Below are positions 8,591 through 15,123 of a DNA stretch of 35,747 bases, in pieces. A model generated the notes under the pieces. That model was not told where the DNA came from and did no database searches. It saw nothing but the letters and a program-made list of their open reading frames with translations. Numbering within the stretch: the stretch's first letter is position 1; every line of letters starts with the position of its first letter. Origin of the DNA: Anaerolineae bacterium (GTDB lineage Bacteria > Chloroflexota > Anaerolineae > JAADDB01); contig WFQU01000143.1 of NCBI GenBank assembly GCA_015486845.1, forward strand, positions 1 to 35,747, read 5' to 3'. The position numbers were made by a program, and so were the translations under genes.

Positions 8591-8633
8591 GAGCTTATAG
8601 TATGTTGCTATGTAAATTAACAAGATAATGTTG

Positions 8634-8746
8634 TTAGGGGAGCTGGGAAGCAGCCCGGCTGAGAGGGAAGTCTACGAGGCAATAGCCTTACTTACTTTCG
8701 ACCCTTTGAACCTGACCTGGGTAATGCCGGCGTAGGAAAACTTACG
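8634..8746 (+). promoter_or_regulatory. TPP riboswitch (THI element)
   Basis: The conserved THI-box segments are present in order: AGGGGAGCT, GGCTGAGAGGG, then CCCTTTGAACCTGACCTGGG and TAATGCCGGCGTAGGAAAAC. These form the pyrimidine-sensing helix (GGCTGAGA) and the pyrophosphate-sensing helix. It precedes a terminator and a thiamine/HMP-type uptake operon, as expected for a riboswitch that shuts off expression when thiamine pyrophosphate is plentiful. Confidence 0.95.
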
Positions 8747-8763
8747 ACGACGAAAAGAGAATT

Positions 8764-8797
8764 AAGGTCATTGCCTCAGGGCAGTGGCCTTTTTTTG
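8764..8797 (+). terminator. Intrinsic terminator of the TPP riboswitch
   Basis: AAGGTCATTGCC pairs with GGCAGTGGCCTT (12 pairs, some G-U), followed by a run of seven T. It lies between the THI element and ykoE, so control is probably by transcription attenuation. Confidence 0.88.
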
Positions 8798-8817
8798 TGT
8801 CACGCGTGTACGTGACA
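8798..8817. promoter_or_regulatory. Inverted repeat TGTCACG-N6-CGTGACA
   Basis: A perfect 7-bp inverted repeat with a 6-bp centre directly after the riboswitch terminator. It resembles a dimeric repressor operator, but no matching regulator gene lies in the window. It could also extend the terminator structure. Confidence 0.3.
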
Positions 8818-9008
8818 TGTTTCATTGTCAAAATATTCACTTTTTGTAATGACTCAGCCCTGGTCAAATAGAACGCTGATCGTATAGATTTCACGCAGAC
8901 AAATCAGAAAGGATTAGCGCGAACCAGCGTAGCTATGCGCCATCTGCGTTCTATCGTGGGGGAAGCTGAGTCGTCATCTTTTACTATTGTAGAAAAGGAG
9001 CGTCGAAA
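8818..9008. other. ykoE upstream region with B-like repeat
   Basis: A diverged B-type repeat (AATAGAACGCTGATCG, then CATCTGCGTTCTA) covers about 8865-8965. AAAAGGAGCGTCGAAA just before 9009 provides the ribosome-binding site for ykoE. No further promoter of good quality was seen. Confidence 0.5.
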
Positions 9009-9770
9009 ATGAAAAAATCGTTACGAACACTTGTTTATGCGTTTCTGGTGGGTGCATTCGTGTTTATTGTCTACTATGTCGCGGCTGTGGTGCGTGGCCC
9101 TAAAGTCGAAGGAGTTAGCTGGAATCCTATCGTGGCTGCAGTGTTAACCATCATGGGGATAGCATCCGGCGCTGCCTGGGGTGTCGGAGGGGAATTGCGC
9201 CGCTGGAAAACGCGCGATGCCATTTTGGCAGCCAATTTAGCGCTGGTTTTCGGTTTGCTCTTCCTCGGCTGGACCATGATCTGGGATTTGGCAAAACCGC
9301 TAAACGCACTGATCCCCGGCGTCCGTGATTCGGTGTACGGCTTCTGGTTCTTGGCCGGATTGGTCGCGCCATATATTATCCGCAAGCCGGGTGCCGCCGT
9401 CGTAGCAGAGACATTAGCCGCGTTAGCCGAATGGCTTGCCGGCAGTCAATGGGGCTTTACATTGCTCATCAGCGGGCTAATTCAAGGCGGCATGGCGGAA
9501 ATCATTTTCGCCGCTTATGGCTATCGTCGCTACAAGCTGGACACCTTGATGTTGGCCGGCGCGGCTGCGGGCATTGGCAGCTTGGTCGTTGACTACTTTT
9601 TCTGGTACGCACAACTCAAACCAGATGTTCTGCTCATTATGTTAATTGCTCGCATCATTAGCGGGGCCATTTTAGGGGGCTGGCTGGCCAAAGTGATCGG
9701 CGACGGCTTAGTGCACTCCGGTGCCCTTGGTAATTTCCCCATTGCCCGAGAAAGTCGCGAGAAAATTTGA
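9009..9770 (+). CDS. ykoE: YkoE-like substrate-binding membrane component of a thiamine/HMP ECF-type transporter
   Basis: A 253-residue membrane protein matching the YkoE family, the substrate-specific component of an ECF-type importer for thiamine or its pyrimidine precursor HMP. Several transmembrane helices are visible (about 8-28, 38-60, 72-95, 105-125, 150-175, 185-235). The family hallmarks are FWFLAGLVAPYIIRKPGAA (about residues 115-133) and AEWLAGSQWGFTLLISGLIQGGMAE (about 140-164). The ATG follows a GGAG-containing ribosome site. Its position behind a TPP riboswitch and ahead of the ATPase and coupling genes confirms the role. Its stop overlaps the next start (TTGA). Confidence 0.92.
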   Translation: MKKSLRTLVYAFLVGAFVFIVYYVAAVVRGPKVEGVSWNPIVAAVLTIMGIASGAAWGVGGELRRWKTRDAILAANLALVFGLLFLGWTMIWDLAKPLNALIPGVRDSVYGFWFLAGLVAPYIIRKPGAAVVAETLAALAEWLAGSQWGFTLLISGLIQGGMAEIIFAAYGYRRYKLDTLMLAGAAAGIGSLVVDYFFWYAQLKPDVLLIMLIARIISGAILGGWLAKVIGDGLVHSGALGNFPIARESREKI

Positions 9771-11470
9771 GTTTACCCATCATTGAAGTCAGCGGATTGT
9801 CCGTCCGCTACCCGTTGCGCCGCCGACCGGCACTGCAAGACTTGAGCTTTTCGGTGGCGCAACACGAAACGCTGCTCATCTTGGGGCCCAGCGGCTGCGG
9901 CAAAAGCACTTTGGCGCTGACGCTAAATGGCCTTATTCCCCATGACATTGAAGCAGAAGTACAAGGAACAATTAACGTAGCTGGCGTAAACGTCGCCGCG
10001 GCTTCCGTGGAGACCCTCACCCGCCAGGTAGGTGTCGTGTTCCAGGACGCCGAAGCACAATTCTGCACACTGCGCGTTGCCGATGAGGTCGCTTTCGGCT
10101 TAGAGAATCTGGGCGTTCCTCGTTCCGAAATGGATGGACGCATCCAGCAGGCGTTACGGCAAGTAGGGCTGGCAGAGATGGCGCAGCGTTCTTTGCGTCG
10201 TCTCTCCGGCGGGGAAAAACAACGTTTAGCTTTGGCGGCCATATTAGCTATGAAGCCGGCCATTATCATCTTGGACGAACCAACGGCCAATTTAGACCCG
10301 GCCGCGACCGCCGCATTTTTCCGCTTAATCGCTCCTTTGCGGACTGAACATACTATTCTCATCGTCGAACACAAATTGGACGAATGTATCCATTTAGTTG
10401 ACCATGTTTTAGTTCTCACGCCAGAGGGTGCTCTGCTGGCGGAGGGTGCACCGCGGGCGATTTTCCAACGAGAAGAGGCGAAATTGCAGGAATATGGCAT
10501 CTGGATTCCCCAGGTAACAGAATGGGCGCTGGCTATGCAGCGGGCCGGGCATCCCGTGGATCCGTTGCCGCTCACACTGCCGGAAGCGGCAGAAACCGTT
10601 CAACAACTGCGTATCCCCGTCCAGTTACCGGCGCACACGTCGCATCAGAGCGTTACGGCAGCGGTTCCGCTGGCGGTGCGGATCGACGGCCTGCGTTTCA
10701 CCTATCCCAAAGCAGACCAGCCGGCGTTACACGATGTGCAACTCACCGTGCCGGAAGGCTCCCTTTTTGCCCTCTTGGGGCCGAACGGTTCCGGCAAAAG
10801 CACGTTAGCCTCCCATTTGATCGCCATTCATCCCACGGTGCCGGGGAAAGTCTTCGTCTTCGGCCAGGATGTCAGCGCTCAAGCTGGCATGACTTTGGCC
10901 CGGCTCACCGAACTAGTGGGCTACGTTTTCCAAAACCCGGAACATCAATTCGTGGCCGACACGGTTTACGACGAATTAGCCTACAGCCTGGCCGTGCGCA
11001 AAGAGCCGGAAGAACAAATAGCACGACGGGTTAGCGCGCTTTTGTTCGATTTCCACCTGGAAACTCTATCAAAGGCCAATCCGTTTACCTTGAGCCAAGG
11101 ACAAAAGCGACGTTTGAGCGTCGCTACCATGCTGGCTGTGGGACAGAAGCTCTTAGTCTTGGATGAACCCACCTTTGGGCAGGACCGGCGCACGACAGAA
11201 CGCATGGTTGCCCGTTGGCGGCAGTTGCAGCAACAGGGCGTGACCATCCTGTTCATCACCCACGACATGCGGTTAGTGCTGGCCGTTGCCGATGCCGTGG
11301 CTGTGCTTGCCGCCGGGCGTGTCATCTTCCACGGTGTTCCAGCCCAGCTTTACGAACGTGAGGACATTTTGCAAGCGGCCCATTTACTGCCGCCGCCGCT
11401 CTATCGTTTAGCTAAAATGACCCACCCAGAGCCGCTCACGCTTATCGCCGACGCTACCAGAGGAATGTGA
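9767..11470 (+). CDS. ykoD: YkoD-like double-domain ECF transporter ATPase
   Basis: A 567-residue protein with two ABC ATPase domains in one chain, as in YkoD. Domain 1: Walker A GPSGCGKST (40-48), signature LSGGEKQRLALA (146-157), Walker B IIILDEPTANLD. Domain 2: Walker A GPNGSGKST (338-346), a degenerate signature LSQGQKRRLSVA and Walker B LLVLDEPTFGQD. Residues 240-305 form a linker. It energises uptake together with YkoE and YkoC. It starts with TTG in a four-base overlap with ykoE, and its stop overlaps the next start (GTGA), so the three genes are translationally coupled. Confidence 0.94.
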   Translation: MSLPIIEVSGLSVRYPLRRRPALQDLSFSVAQHETLLILGPSGCGKSTLALTLNGLIPHDIEAEVQGTINVAGVNVAAASVETLTRQVGVVFQDAEAQFCTLRVADEVAFGLENLGVPRSEMDGRIQQALRQVGLAEMAQRSLRRLSGGEKQRLALAAILAMKPAIIILDEPTANLDPAATAAFFRLIAPLRTEHTILIVEHKLDECIHLVDHVLVLTPEGALLAEGAPRAIFQREEAKLQEYGIWIPQVTEWALAMQRAGHPVDPLPLTLPEAAETVQQLRIPVQLPAHTSHQSVTAAVPLAVRIDGLRFTYPKADQPALHDVQLTVPEGSLFALLGPNGSGKSTLASHLIAIHPTVPGKVFVFGQDVSAQAGMTLARLTELVGYVFQNPEHQFVADTVYDELAYSLAVRKEPEEQIARRVSALLFDFHLETLSKANPFTLSQGQKRRLSVATMLAVGQKLLVLDEPTFGQDRRTTERMVARWRQLQQQGVTILFITHDMRLVLAVADAVAVLAAGRVIFHGVPAQLYEREDILQAAHLLPPPLYRLAKMTHPEPLTLIADATRGM

Positions 11471-12264
11471 GGCCGATTTTGGGACTATTTTCGTATTACG
11501 AAGAAGATTCATTCTTGCATCGGCTCAATCCCAGCATCAAGCTATTAGTGATTTTCTTAGCCGTGATTATTCTGACTTTGGCACCAGACCCGTACACGCC
11601 GGGGCTGTTCTTGCTGTTGACGCTGTTGGCCCTCTGGGTGGTTGGCCGGGTACCGATGCGAGTCATCCTGCGCTCTACCTGGCCATTAGTCTTGCTCACT
11701 ATCCCGTTCTTCATTTTTAACACCCTTTACTTCGATTTGGGAAAAGTGGTCCAGCCGCATATCTGGTTTCATTTGGGCCCGTGGACTGTAGCTCGGGAGA
11801 GCGCCATCGTCGGACTGGCCCTTTCCTTGCGTATCTTGGCATTCATCGCCTGTTCCCTTTTCTTTGTCACAACTACATCGCCCACCGATTTCGCTTTGAG
11901 CTTGATTCAACAAGCCCATGTCCCCTACCGGTTTGGTTATGCCATTTTAGTCGCATATCGTTTCATCCCTTTGTGGACCGAAGAACTCGCCACTATCCAG
12001 GCGGCCCATAAAGTGCGCGGCGTCGGCGAGCACAGCGGATGGCGGGGCATGCTACAGCAATTTCGGCGCTACGCTATTCCGCTTTTAGCTAATGCTATCC
12101 GCAAATCGGAACGGGTCGCCATCGCCATGGATAGCAAAGCCTTTGGTGTCACATCCCAGCGCACTTATTACAGAGAACTACACATCTGTCGTAGGGATTA
12201 CGTTTTCTTAGCTATCACGTTGCTGACTTTGCTGGCTATTTTCTACTTTTTGGGCAACTACTAA
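11467..12264 (+). CDS. ykoC: YkoC-like ECF transporter coupling permease (T component)
   Basis: A 265-residue integral membrane protein of the CbiQ/EcfT class. Early motif SFLHRLNPSIKLLVIF is typical of EcfT N-termini, followed by four to five hydrophobic helices. The two short Ala-Arg-Gly-like coupling motifs that contact the ATPase correspond to the regions around AAHKVRGVGEH (about 179-189) and AIAMDSKAFGVTSQR (about 217-231). It begins with GTG inside the ykoD stop. The last helix ends near the C-terminus. With YkoE and YkoD it forms the complete importer; no separate salvage enzyme is encoded next to it. Confidence 0.92.
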   Translation: MRPILGLFSYYEEDSFLHRLNPSIKLLVIFLAVIILTLAPDPYTPGLFLLLTLLALWVVGRVPMRVILRSTWPLVLLTIPFFIFNTLYFDLGKVVQPHIWFHLGPWTVARESAIVGLALSLRILAFIACSLFFVTTTSPTDFALSLIQQAHVPYRFGYAILVAYRFIPLWTEELATIQAAHKVRGVGEHSGWRGMLQQFRRYAIPLLANAIRKSERVAIAMDSKAFGVTSQRTYYRELHICRRDYVFLAITLLTLLAIFYFLGNY

Positions 12265-12403: not shown

Positions 12404-12433
12404 TTGACAAGCAGGCGTGGTGCTGTTTATAAT
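12404..12433 (+). promoter_or_regulatory. Promoter of the fluoride-riboswitch transcript
   Basis: A perfect TTGACA (12404-12409) and a perfect TATAAT (12428-12433) with an 18-bp spacer. The predicted start near 12440 lies just ahead of the structured leader. Confidence 0.82.
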
Positions 12434-12448
12434 TACTCCACAGATAGG

Positions 12449-12562
12449 CATTACGGTGATGAAGCTCACCACAATGTTTCCAACGGTTTAGCCCGCTATC
12501 CTTGATTAAAAGACTATCCGTTGGAACGATGCAACGTATATAATACTAATGGCTTCTACTGA
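12449..12562 (+). promoter_or_regulatory. Fluoride riboswitch (crcB motif), atypical long insertion
   Basis: GGTGATGAAGCTCACC (12455-12470) matches the first conserved segment of the fluoride aptamer: a GG-N-GATG hairpin whose loop GAAGC forms the pseudoknot. The partner GCTTC is found in TAATGGCTTCTACTG (about 12546-12560), which matches the conserved 3' end of the aptamer. Between them a 9-bp stem TTCCAACGG (12478-12486) with CCGTTGGAA (12518-12526) stands where the second aptamer stem is expected, but the insert is longer than usual. The pseudoknot strand is shared with a terminator hairpin directly downstream, as in known fluoride switches. Assignment rests on visual matching to the family, not on a covariance model. 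Confidence 0.77.
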
Positions 12563-12594
12563 ACGGGACACGTGCAGTAGAAGCTTATTTTTTT
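12550..12594 (+). terminator. Intrinsic terminator of the fluoride riboswitch
   Basis: GCTTCTACTG pairs with CAGTAGAAGC (10 perfect pairs, 13-base loop), followed by TTATTTTTTT. Its 5' arm overlaps the aptamer 3' strand, so ligand binding would prevent the terminator and turn expression on. Confidence 0.9.
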
Positions 12595-12633
12595 GGTAGC
12601 AAGTCGCAGTCAGCAGGGGAAAAAGGGGACATT

Positions 12634-13443
12634 ATGGTAGACATGATTAGCTTAGACATGAAAATAGCTTTCCGAAAACAGGGCTGTCCGCTGTGCCGAT
12701 TGCGTTATCGCGCCGAGCAGAAGTATTTGTTTGGCTTTCTCTGGGAAAATGTGACCGACGGCGGCATCCGCAGCCGCTGGTTGCGTTCGTTGGGATTATG
12801 TCACGATCATGCTTGGCAGCTACAAGAGATAGAGGCCGCCCACTGGCACGATGGCATGGGAACGGCCACTGCCTACGAGAGTTTTTTACGTTTAGCCCAA
12901 CGGGAGATTATTGCTTATCGCCAGCAAGCCAGGCCGGCGGCGACTGAATCGACCGACGATCCATCGGCCTGGCAACATTTGCGGGACGGGATTGGCCAGC
13001 TCTTACGTGGGGCGCAGGCAGAGGGAGCTCCCATCACAGGTTTGATACCCAAAGCGCCCTGCCCGGCGTGCGAACTGGGAGACAGAATCGAACAGCGTTA
13101 TTTACGCTGGCTGGTACGGGATTTACCTGCAGAGGAGGCGTTCCGCCAGGCCTACGAGGATTCCGATGGCCTTTGTTTACCCCATTTGCAGAAAGCGTTG
13201 TACTGGGCGGGGAAGGAAAATCCAGCCGCCAGCGACATTCTGTTGGCCAAGAGCGAGCACGATTTGCAGAAGCGCTTGGTCGATTTGCAGGAATACTTGC
13301 GCAAACACAGTTACCAATATCACGACGAGACTATTTCGCCCGCTGAGGAACAGGCATGGATACGGGTAATAGCCTGGTTAGTAGGCGAAAAGCGGCCACC
13401 GGAACAGGATTTACGCGGCGATACCACAGGCGCGGAGCGATAA
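12634..13443 (+). CDS. DUF6062-like protein with duplicated CxxC...CxxH module
   Basis: A 269-residue soluble protein resembling the uncharacterised DUF6062 family. It contains two similar modules: Cys18-Pro-Leu-Cys21, about 34 residues of helix, then Cys56-His-Asp-His59; and Cys143-Pro-Ala-Cys146, then Cys181-Leu-Pro-His184. In each, E-Q-(K/R)-Y-L follows the CxxC pair. Such CxxC...CxxH modules usually bind zinc or another metal, which is inference here. There is no signal peptide or membrane segment. ATG at 12634 follows AGGGGAAAAAGGGGAC. It is the only gene directly behind the fluoride-type riboswitch, 40 bases after its terminator, so its expression is probably fluoride-induced. It is not a known fluoride exporter. 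Confidence 0.83.
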   Translation: MVDMISLDMKIAFRKQGCPLCRLRYRAEQKYLFGFLWENVTDGGIRSRWLRSLGLCHDHAWQLQEIEAAHWHDGMGTATAYESFLRLAQREIIAYRQQARPAATESTDDPSAWQHLRDGIGQLLRGAQAEGAPITGLIPKAPCPACELGDRIEQRYLRWLVRDLPAEEAFRQAYEDSDGLCLPHLQKALYWAGKENPAASDILLAKSEHDLQKRLVDLQEYLRKHSYQYHDETISPAEEQAWIRVIAWLVGEKRPPEQDLRGDTTGAER

Positions 13444-14472: not shown

Positions 14473-15123
14473 ATGGTCAAGCTAAGGCGCATGCCAGCAC
14501 CGGTCAGCCCGGATCGGGACAGTATCCGGCAGCGTTTTCAGCAGGAACGGTTACACATTCAGCCGTACACATTGACGCAAGTGCCGGCCAACATAGCTGC
14601 CGCATTCCCACACCCGTGGTCGCCGGTGGAACATCTCACAGACTACTTAGCGCTCTTCCCGCCCAGCTTGTTAGCTTTTTGGCTGCGTCAGCCGGGCGGG
14701 CACCTGCTCATCGCGCCCTCGGCCAGCCGCTATTTGCCGGGACCGTATCTTTTTGGCCATCGCAAGCTCTCCGGCGTCTTGCTGCTCGATGTGCGACTGC
14801 TAATCGAACCAACAGAGGAGATCGCCATCCTGCTGGGGAACCTGTTCGATGCTTTGTTGGGAGACGGGGCAACCATTAACGGCCAACGTTTTTCCGCCGG
14901 GCATGTTGTCCACCCCCATTTAGCGGACGCTAATCATCGTTTTCTGCGACAGGCGCAATTGGGCTATTTGGAAGCAAATTCGGCAGAAGTACTTTTCGCC
15001 CGCGCTTTGGCCTTCTTTTGGCGCGATCGGCGTGCATTAAGTATCGTTGCCCCCGACCTGGAGAAGCTCCTCCGACAAGTGCTGCTGGCTGAATCATTCT
15101 GGGCTAACATCGGCAAACTATGA
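14473..15123 (+). CDS. Protein of unknown function
   Basis: A 216-residue protein that I do not recognise. It is soluble, Leu/Ala-rich and has no Cys pairs or nucleotide-binding motif. The central part has alternating hydrophobic and Pro/Gly-rich segments (LLAFWLRQPGGHLLIAP; LFGHRKLSGVLLLDVRLL), and the C-terminal half is helical, with a His-rich patch (GHVVHPHLADANHRF at about 154-168). The ATG has GGGAG nine bases upstream. It stands between the repeat region and the EtfD-like gene, transcribed in the same direction, with a 207-base gap that carries its own regulatory site, so co-transcription is uncertain. Confidence 0.65.
   Translation: MVKLRRMPAPVSPDRDSIRQRFQQERLHIQPYTLTQVPANIAAAFPHPWSPVEHLTDYLALFPPSLLAFWLRQPGGHLLIAPSASRYLPGPYLFGHRKLSGVLLLDVRLLIEPTEEIAILLGNLFDALLGDGATINGQRFSAGHVVHPHLADANHRFLRQAQLGYLEANSAEVLFARALAFFWRDRRALSIVAPDLEKLLRQVLLAESFWANIGKL

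Follow-up and report, generated by a model that had tools for sequence, protein, structure and literature searches.

Fluoride is a universal toxin, and the known bacterial answers to it are mostly exporters or over-made target enzymes. The stretch of DNA analysed here (the window, 35,747 nucleotides from an Anaerolineae bacterium) raises a question about a different kind of gene. A first-pass annotation, made from the sequence alone, had proposed that a fluoride-type riboswitch stands here in front of a DUF6062-like gene rather than an exporter, and that the Cys/His-rich product would be a new fluoride-response candidate. We asked whether the leader is indeed a fluoride riboswitch, and whether DUF6062 belongs to the response that such a switch would control.

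The elements of the leader are collected in Table 1. The strong promoter named in the annotation matches the consensus throughout, and P1, a 4-bp hairpin, starts about 20 nt past it, with the loop GAAGCU (12461-12466) as the 5' pseudoknot strand. Some 50 additional bases, absent from the fluoride riboswitch model RF01734 (crcB motif), then separate P1 from P2. The canonical order is regained 3' of this extra hairpin with CAAC, a 4-bp P2 (GUAU-AUA-AUAC) and UAAUGG; in the MFE fold the four pairs of P2 join GUAU (12536-12539) to AUAC (12543-12546) around the loop AUA. The 3' pseudoknot strand GGCUUC (12551-12556) forms six pairs with GAAGCU, one of them a U-G wobble at the top, in agreement with the GAAGC/GCTTC pseudoknot of the earlier reading. 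When the tertiary pairs are numbered after the T. petrophila aptamer (PMC11586693), A12459, U12460 and G12461 correspond to A6, U7 and G8, and both long-range pairs, A6-U38 and A40-U48, have their residues in place (A12459, U12547, A12549 and U12557). The aptamer spans 12455-12561, with both conserved segments in place as first described, the 5' one without a mismatch.

The terminator also shares a strand with the pseudoknot, as had been claimed: its arm CAGTAGAAGC (12575-12584), followed by TTATTTTTTT (12585-12594), pairs with the 3' pseudoknot strand. Since the 5' arm of the terminator is the 3' pseudoknot strand itself, the bound aptamer and the terminator would be mutually exclusive, and the same overlap is found in nearly all of the related leaders listed. 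The fold of the window leader beats 200 of 200 shuffles (z = -3.5). DUF6062 is the sole gene of the unit, as annotated; past it, the next plus-strand ORF of 80 aa or more begins at 14473.

Table 1 Features of the window leader and gene, with loci of two families found near fluoride leaders elsewhere.
Feature	Position	Strand	Sequence	Basis
Sigma-70-type promoter	12404..12433	+	TTGACA-N18-TATAAT	12/12 consensus positions
Aptamer P1 hairpin and loop	12455..12470	+	GGTGATGAAGCTCACC (RNA GGUGAUGAAGCUCACC)	5' element, 0 mismatches
Extra hairpin between P1 and P2	12476..12527	+	UUUCCAACGG...CCGUUGGAA	Fold, -14 kcal/mol alone
Conserved CAAC and P2	12532..12546	+		Sequence, MFE fold; P2 covaries in relatives
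Aptamer 3' element	12547..12561	+	TAATGGCTTCTACTG (RNA UAAUGGCUUCUACUG)	U38, A40, U41, G42 and U48 equivalents kept
Intrinsic terminator	12552..12594	+	GCUUCUACUG...CAGUAGAAGC + UUAUUUUUUU (DNA GCTTCTACTG...CAGTAGAAGC-TTATTTTTTT)	Fold; overlaps pseudoknot
Purine-rich stretch, probable ribosome-binding region	12615..12628	+		Sequence, before start codon
DUF6062 gene (PF19538), 269 aa	12634..13443	+		Pfam 51.9 bits (cut-off 27), E=9.4e-14
Zinc-ribbon + HEAT-repeat proteins	L070:6243-6671, L074:1958-2350, L078:1735-2217, L081:5533-6099, L083:2670-3101, L080, L082			
MutS-like ATPase loci	L043, L046, L048, L051, L053-L057, L065, L087, L100			

A switch that matters to the gene should be found with it elsewhere. 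In the family and order genome sets, six genomes in total, DUF6062 was not found outside the window's own genome; the five sampled order relatives are without it, so the switch-gene pair is untraceable close to home and we used the class for comparison. There, DUF6062 occurs in 157 of 396 genomes. A separate RF01734 search of the same 396 genomes returned 78 matches at E<=1e-4, of which 14 precede a same-strand DUF6062 gene by 57-275 nt, against about 0.01 expected if matches lay before random genes (assuming ~3,500 genes per genome and ~190 DUF6062 genes). Nine more of the 78 lie farther upstream (0.6-7 kb, same strand), and one weaker match (20.9 bits) is also directly upstream on the same strand. 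The DUF6062-linked leaders elsewhere reach RF01734 scores of 34-50 bits.

A second set of 79 DUF6062 loci from named genomes was gathered by protein search alone. A strict leader lies within 500 nt in 19 of them versus 0.003 expected (background, 1 match per 11.5 Mb of Markov sequence), and within 4 kb in 7 further loci. Leader-bearing loci extend beyond Chloroflexota to the Methylomirabilota genome L160, and strict leaders are also present in three unclassified bacterial genomes (L148, L152 and L157). In the Armatimonadota genome L141 the leader is near-perfect, with a single mismatch in the pseudoknot, and scores 38.4 bits with R1. This covariance model was trained on 38 leaders linked to DUF6062 in other genomes, the window being left out. 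The leader at the Elusimicrobiota locus L162 was discarded as a loose match, having neither a GC-rich P1 nor the conserved loop. Many Chloroflexota families, as well as other phyla, thus carry the leader before DUF6062 homologues, against the outcome of no recurrence that the annotation had named as refuting its reading.

The genes that accompany DUF6062 point in the same direction. CrcB lies downstream of DUF6062 under a leader of the same type in L085 and L157 (Pfam check) and in L148 and L152 (by similarity), enolase precedes DUF6062 under a fluoride leader in L068, two MutS-like ATPases do so in L065 and L087, and a Na+/H+ exchanger and a Usp-CBS protein form one unit with DUF6062 in L080 and L082. 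In L141, DUF6062 stands upstream of a dynamin-like GTPase under the leader. A review (PMC11139923) lists the gene classes of fluoride switches as exporters, Na+/H+ antiporters, pyrophosphatase, HAD phosphatases, enolase, formate hydrogen lyase and chorismate mutase, and mutS has been noted with the crcB motif (PMC2864571). Among the immediate neighbours of leader-less DUF6062 genes, no recurring family and no fluoride-type partner set was found. The wording "rather than an exporter" holds for the window and fails as a general statement, because in several genomes DUF6062 shares one operon with CrcB.

Several other families were seen near these leaders. A zinc-ribbon and HEAT-repeat family recurs beside DUF6062 under fluoride leaders and is a further fluoride-response candidate; in L080 it is fused to an MFS transporter. 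Dynamin-like GTPases stand 3' of fluoride leaders with or without DUF6062 (L070:3305-5263, L100:1336-3300, L141:4628-6409). MutS-like ATPases are often found behind fluoride leaders of the class, frequently in pairs, with the N-terminal motif DLNLDQ in common and a match to MutS domain V far under the MutS1/MutS2 equivalog cut-offs. In L091, L096, L116 and L080, tandem DUF6062 genes from different branches of the family follow one fluoride leader.

We placed 117 DUF6062 proteins on a tree (quick search, SH-aLRT). Leader-linked members cluster on it, yet well-supported branches still require at least 11-12 changes of the leader label, which implies repeated gain or loss of the pairing. Of the 21 members of the window protein's own clade (SH-aLRT 100), 20 are leader-linked, near or operonic; this is an upper figure, partly biased because some of the 117 proteins were fetched for having a leader. 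The family is not exclusively fluoride-linked, since 65 of the 117 sampled genes have no detectable leader. These leader-less genes, together with the absence of DUF6062 from the other members of the window's order, could suggest that the switch is real and DUF6062 merely a passenger, placed by chance or horizontal transfer and with no role in fluoride tolerance. We consider this very unlikely, as the pairing turns up again and again in many families and several phyla, with all the label changes that the tree forces, and the leader lies directly upstream of the gene, also within operons of known fluoride genes. Because the pairing of leader and gene recurs in distantly related bacteria, the DUF6062 family very probably takes part in the microbial fluoride response.

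The Rfam score of the window leader itself is low. At default thresholds, Rfam reported only a tRNA and a TPP switch in the window and not the fluoride leader. In a search by E-value, RF01734 was the best Rfam family for the leader, with 25.4 bits (E=3.4e-5), below the gathering score of 34 bits, which is the curators' inclusion threshold and not a structural feature. A match of 25.6 bits in the class-wide search has E=9e-5 per genome, so the score of the window leader is still significant. Scored with R1, the window leader reached 28.2 bits (E=1.8e-7 for the window alone) and was the top match of the whole genome at E=1.7e-5. The earlier assignment to the fluoride family was upheld: the curated threshold is missed, but RF01734 is the best family, R1 ranks the leader first in its genome, and the shortfall is likely due to the extra hairpin between P1 and P2.

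Compensatory changes preserve P1 and the pseudoknot across 41 leaders linked to DUF6062, in which GAUG is invariant; P2 is 94% paired, and 14 double-change cells were counted in it. As the leaders were picked on P1 and pseudoknot pairs and not on P2, the covariation of P1 and the pseudoknot is partly circular. Inserted hairpins like that of the window occur, for example, in the DUF6062 leaders L075, L077, L081, L086, L091, L108, L116, L138 and L139; extra sequence or a hairpin between P1 and P2 was also observed in L078 and L096. Leaders of this form have low or sub-threshold RF01734 scores, so counts of the class are probably too low in Chloroflexota, where the standard model probably misses in part the fluoride switches with an inserted hairpin.

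The extra hairpin, the low Rfam score and the zinc-type Cys/His motif of DUF6062 might together indicate a diverged, fluoride-like aptamer whose ligand has changed to another anion or a metal-ion complex, with DUF6062 as a metal-homeostasis gene. This appears highly improbable when the equivalents of A6, U7, G8, U38, A40, U41, G42 and U48 are all unaltered, the other DUF6062 leaders score well within the range of RF01734 given above, and the same leaders drive CrcB and enolase. A chance resemblance between an ordinary terminator or attenuator and the aptamer, for which only the score beneath the curated threshold would speak, is scarcely credible given the exact 5' and 3' conserved segments, the pseudoknot complementarity, the genome-wide match with the independent model R1 and the orthologous leaders at the same position.

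The architecture resembles the known fluoride riboswitch in P1, the GAUG loop, the pseudoknot, P2 and both tertiary-pair residues, and in the overlap of the terminator with the 3' pseudoknot strand (PMC2864571, PMC8752731, PMC11077080). It differs from RF01734 in the hairpin inserted between P1 and P2, and from the recognised switches in controlling DUF6062, a gene class absent from those named in PMC11139923. Transcriptional fluoride switches work by the opposition of terminator and pseudoknot (PMC8752731, PMC11077080), and the linchpin is described in PMC8752731. By the same logic, the terminator of the window leader would take the 3' pseudoknot strand when fluoride is absent and keep DUF6062 off; with fluoride, a Mg3F cluster and the linchpin would hold the pseudoknot and transcription would read through. 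We regard it as highly likely that the window leader acts as a fluoride riboswitch by transcription termination, enlarged by an extra P1-P2 hairpin, and that DUF6062 is a genuine, recurrent fluoride-response gene; the aptamer and terminator architecture, the recurrence and the co-operonic fluoride genes are read from the sequence, from which we infer the ligand response.

What the product might do was approached from the protein. The window protein is a full-length match to PF19538, a family of no known function of which a large part of the members here are tied to fluoride. The first-pass description was of a Cys/His-rich protein. In an alignment of 45 DUF6062 sequences, ten residues are invariant (CxxC, Gly, C and H, twice over), and all ten are there in the window protein, which carries two CxxC...GxCxxH modules (C18, C21, C56, H59 and C143, C146, C181, H184; invariant in the 45). 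A module of ~50 residues, CPxC...GxCxxH, is duplicated to give the two halves of the protein (hhalign probability 97, E=1.1e-10). An AlphaFold2 model is all-helical (pLDDT 88, pTM 0.81). The highest 19-residue hydropathy is 0.6, so that no segment is membrane-grade; Pfam gives DUF6062 only, with no match to the CrcB/Fluc family PF02537, and there are no membrane helices. DUF6062 is soluble, hence no exporter by itself.

Searches of the PDB returned nothing below E=1 by fold with the model and nothing below E=0.07 by profile, so no function can be assigned from the fold. Weak Pfam matches at E<=1 are scattered over zinc-finger-like families and give a hint of metal binding only. The simplest reading would make DUF6062 a soluble protein carrying two putative tetrahedral metal sites, probably for zinc, a metal read from the invariant Cys/His alone. 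Tentatively, DUF6062 may be a soluble helical protein whose two C3H metal sites (probably zinc) serve to protect or restore fluoride-sensitive metal-dependent enzymes, or to buffer metal ions. Given its solubility and its company of target enzymes and exporters, enzyme protection or repair, or metal-ion handling, is likelier than transport.

The genome of the window, which is 97.9% complete, was also searched for other fluoride elements, as the first annotation had suggested. No CrcB was found in it. Two CLC genes with CBS-like tails and ordinary GxFxP filters, which we take not to be CLC-F, have no fluoride leader in the stretches fetched. A second, canonical fluoride switch lies on another contig (C76:26373-26436, 48.4 bits) before a 175-aa ORF without a Pfam match, ~830 bases from the contig end, and the gene that it controls may be cut or decayed. 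CrcB seemed scarcer in genomes with leader-linked DUF6062 (6/28 vs 169/396, Fisher p=0.018), a comparison that we set aside because the genomes are non-independent (5/16 by family). Upstream in the window (8626-12264), a TPP riboswitch, a YkoE-like (ABC_cobalt) permease component, a double ABC ATPase and a CbiQ-type permease form what looks like an ordinary thiamin-precursor transporter operon.

The riboswitch class is already known, and the DUF6062 link is unreported in the open-access literature searched. The name DUF6062 occurs in none of the 5.39 million papers of the open-access library, nor was its link to fluoride found there; an earlier mention under another name, for instance in the original lists of genes by Baker et al. 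2012, may exist. The exporters CrcB/Fluc and CLC-F are controlled by the same switch and sometimes share one operon with DUF6062, whereas the DUF6062 of the window is soluble. With recurrence and co-operonic fluoride genes behind it, the proposal of DUF6062 as a fluoride-response candidate has held. It is a serious possibility, if short of a probable one, that DUF6062 is a new fluoride-tolerance protein that acts without export, a two-metal-site protein that would shield or repair metal-dependent enzymes or handle metal-fluoride complexes. Through the fluoride regulon, a family of no known function gains a testable role, and the link suggests a step of defence within the cytosol. If this is true, DUF6062 may be a main fluoride defence in lineages without CrcB.
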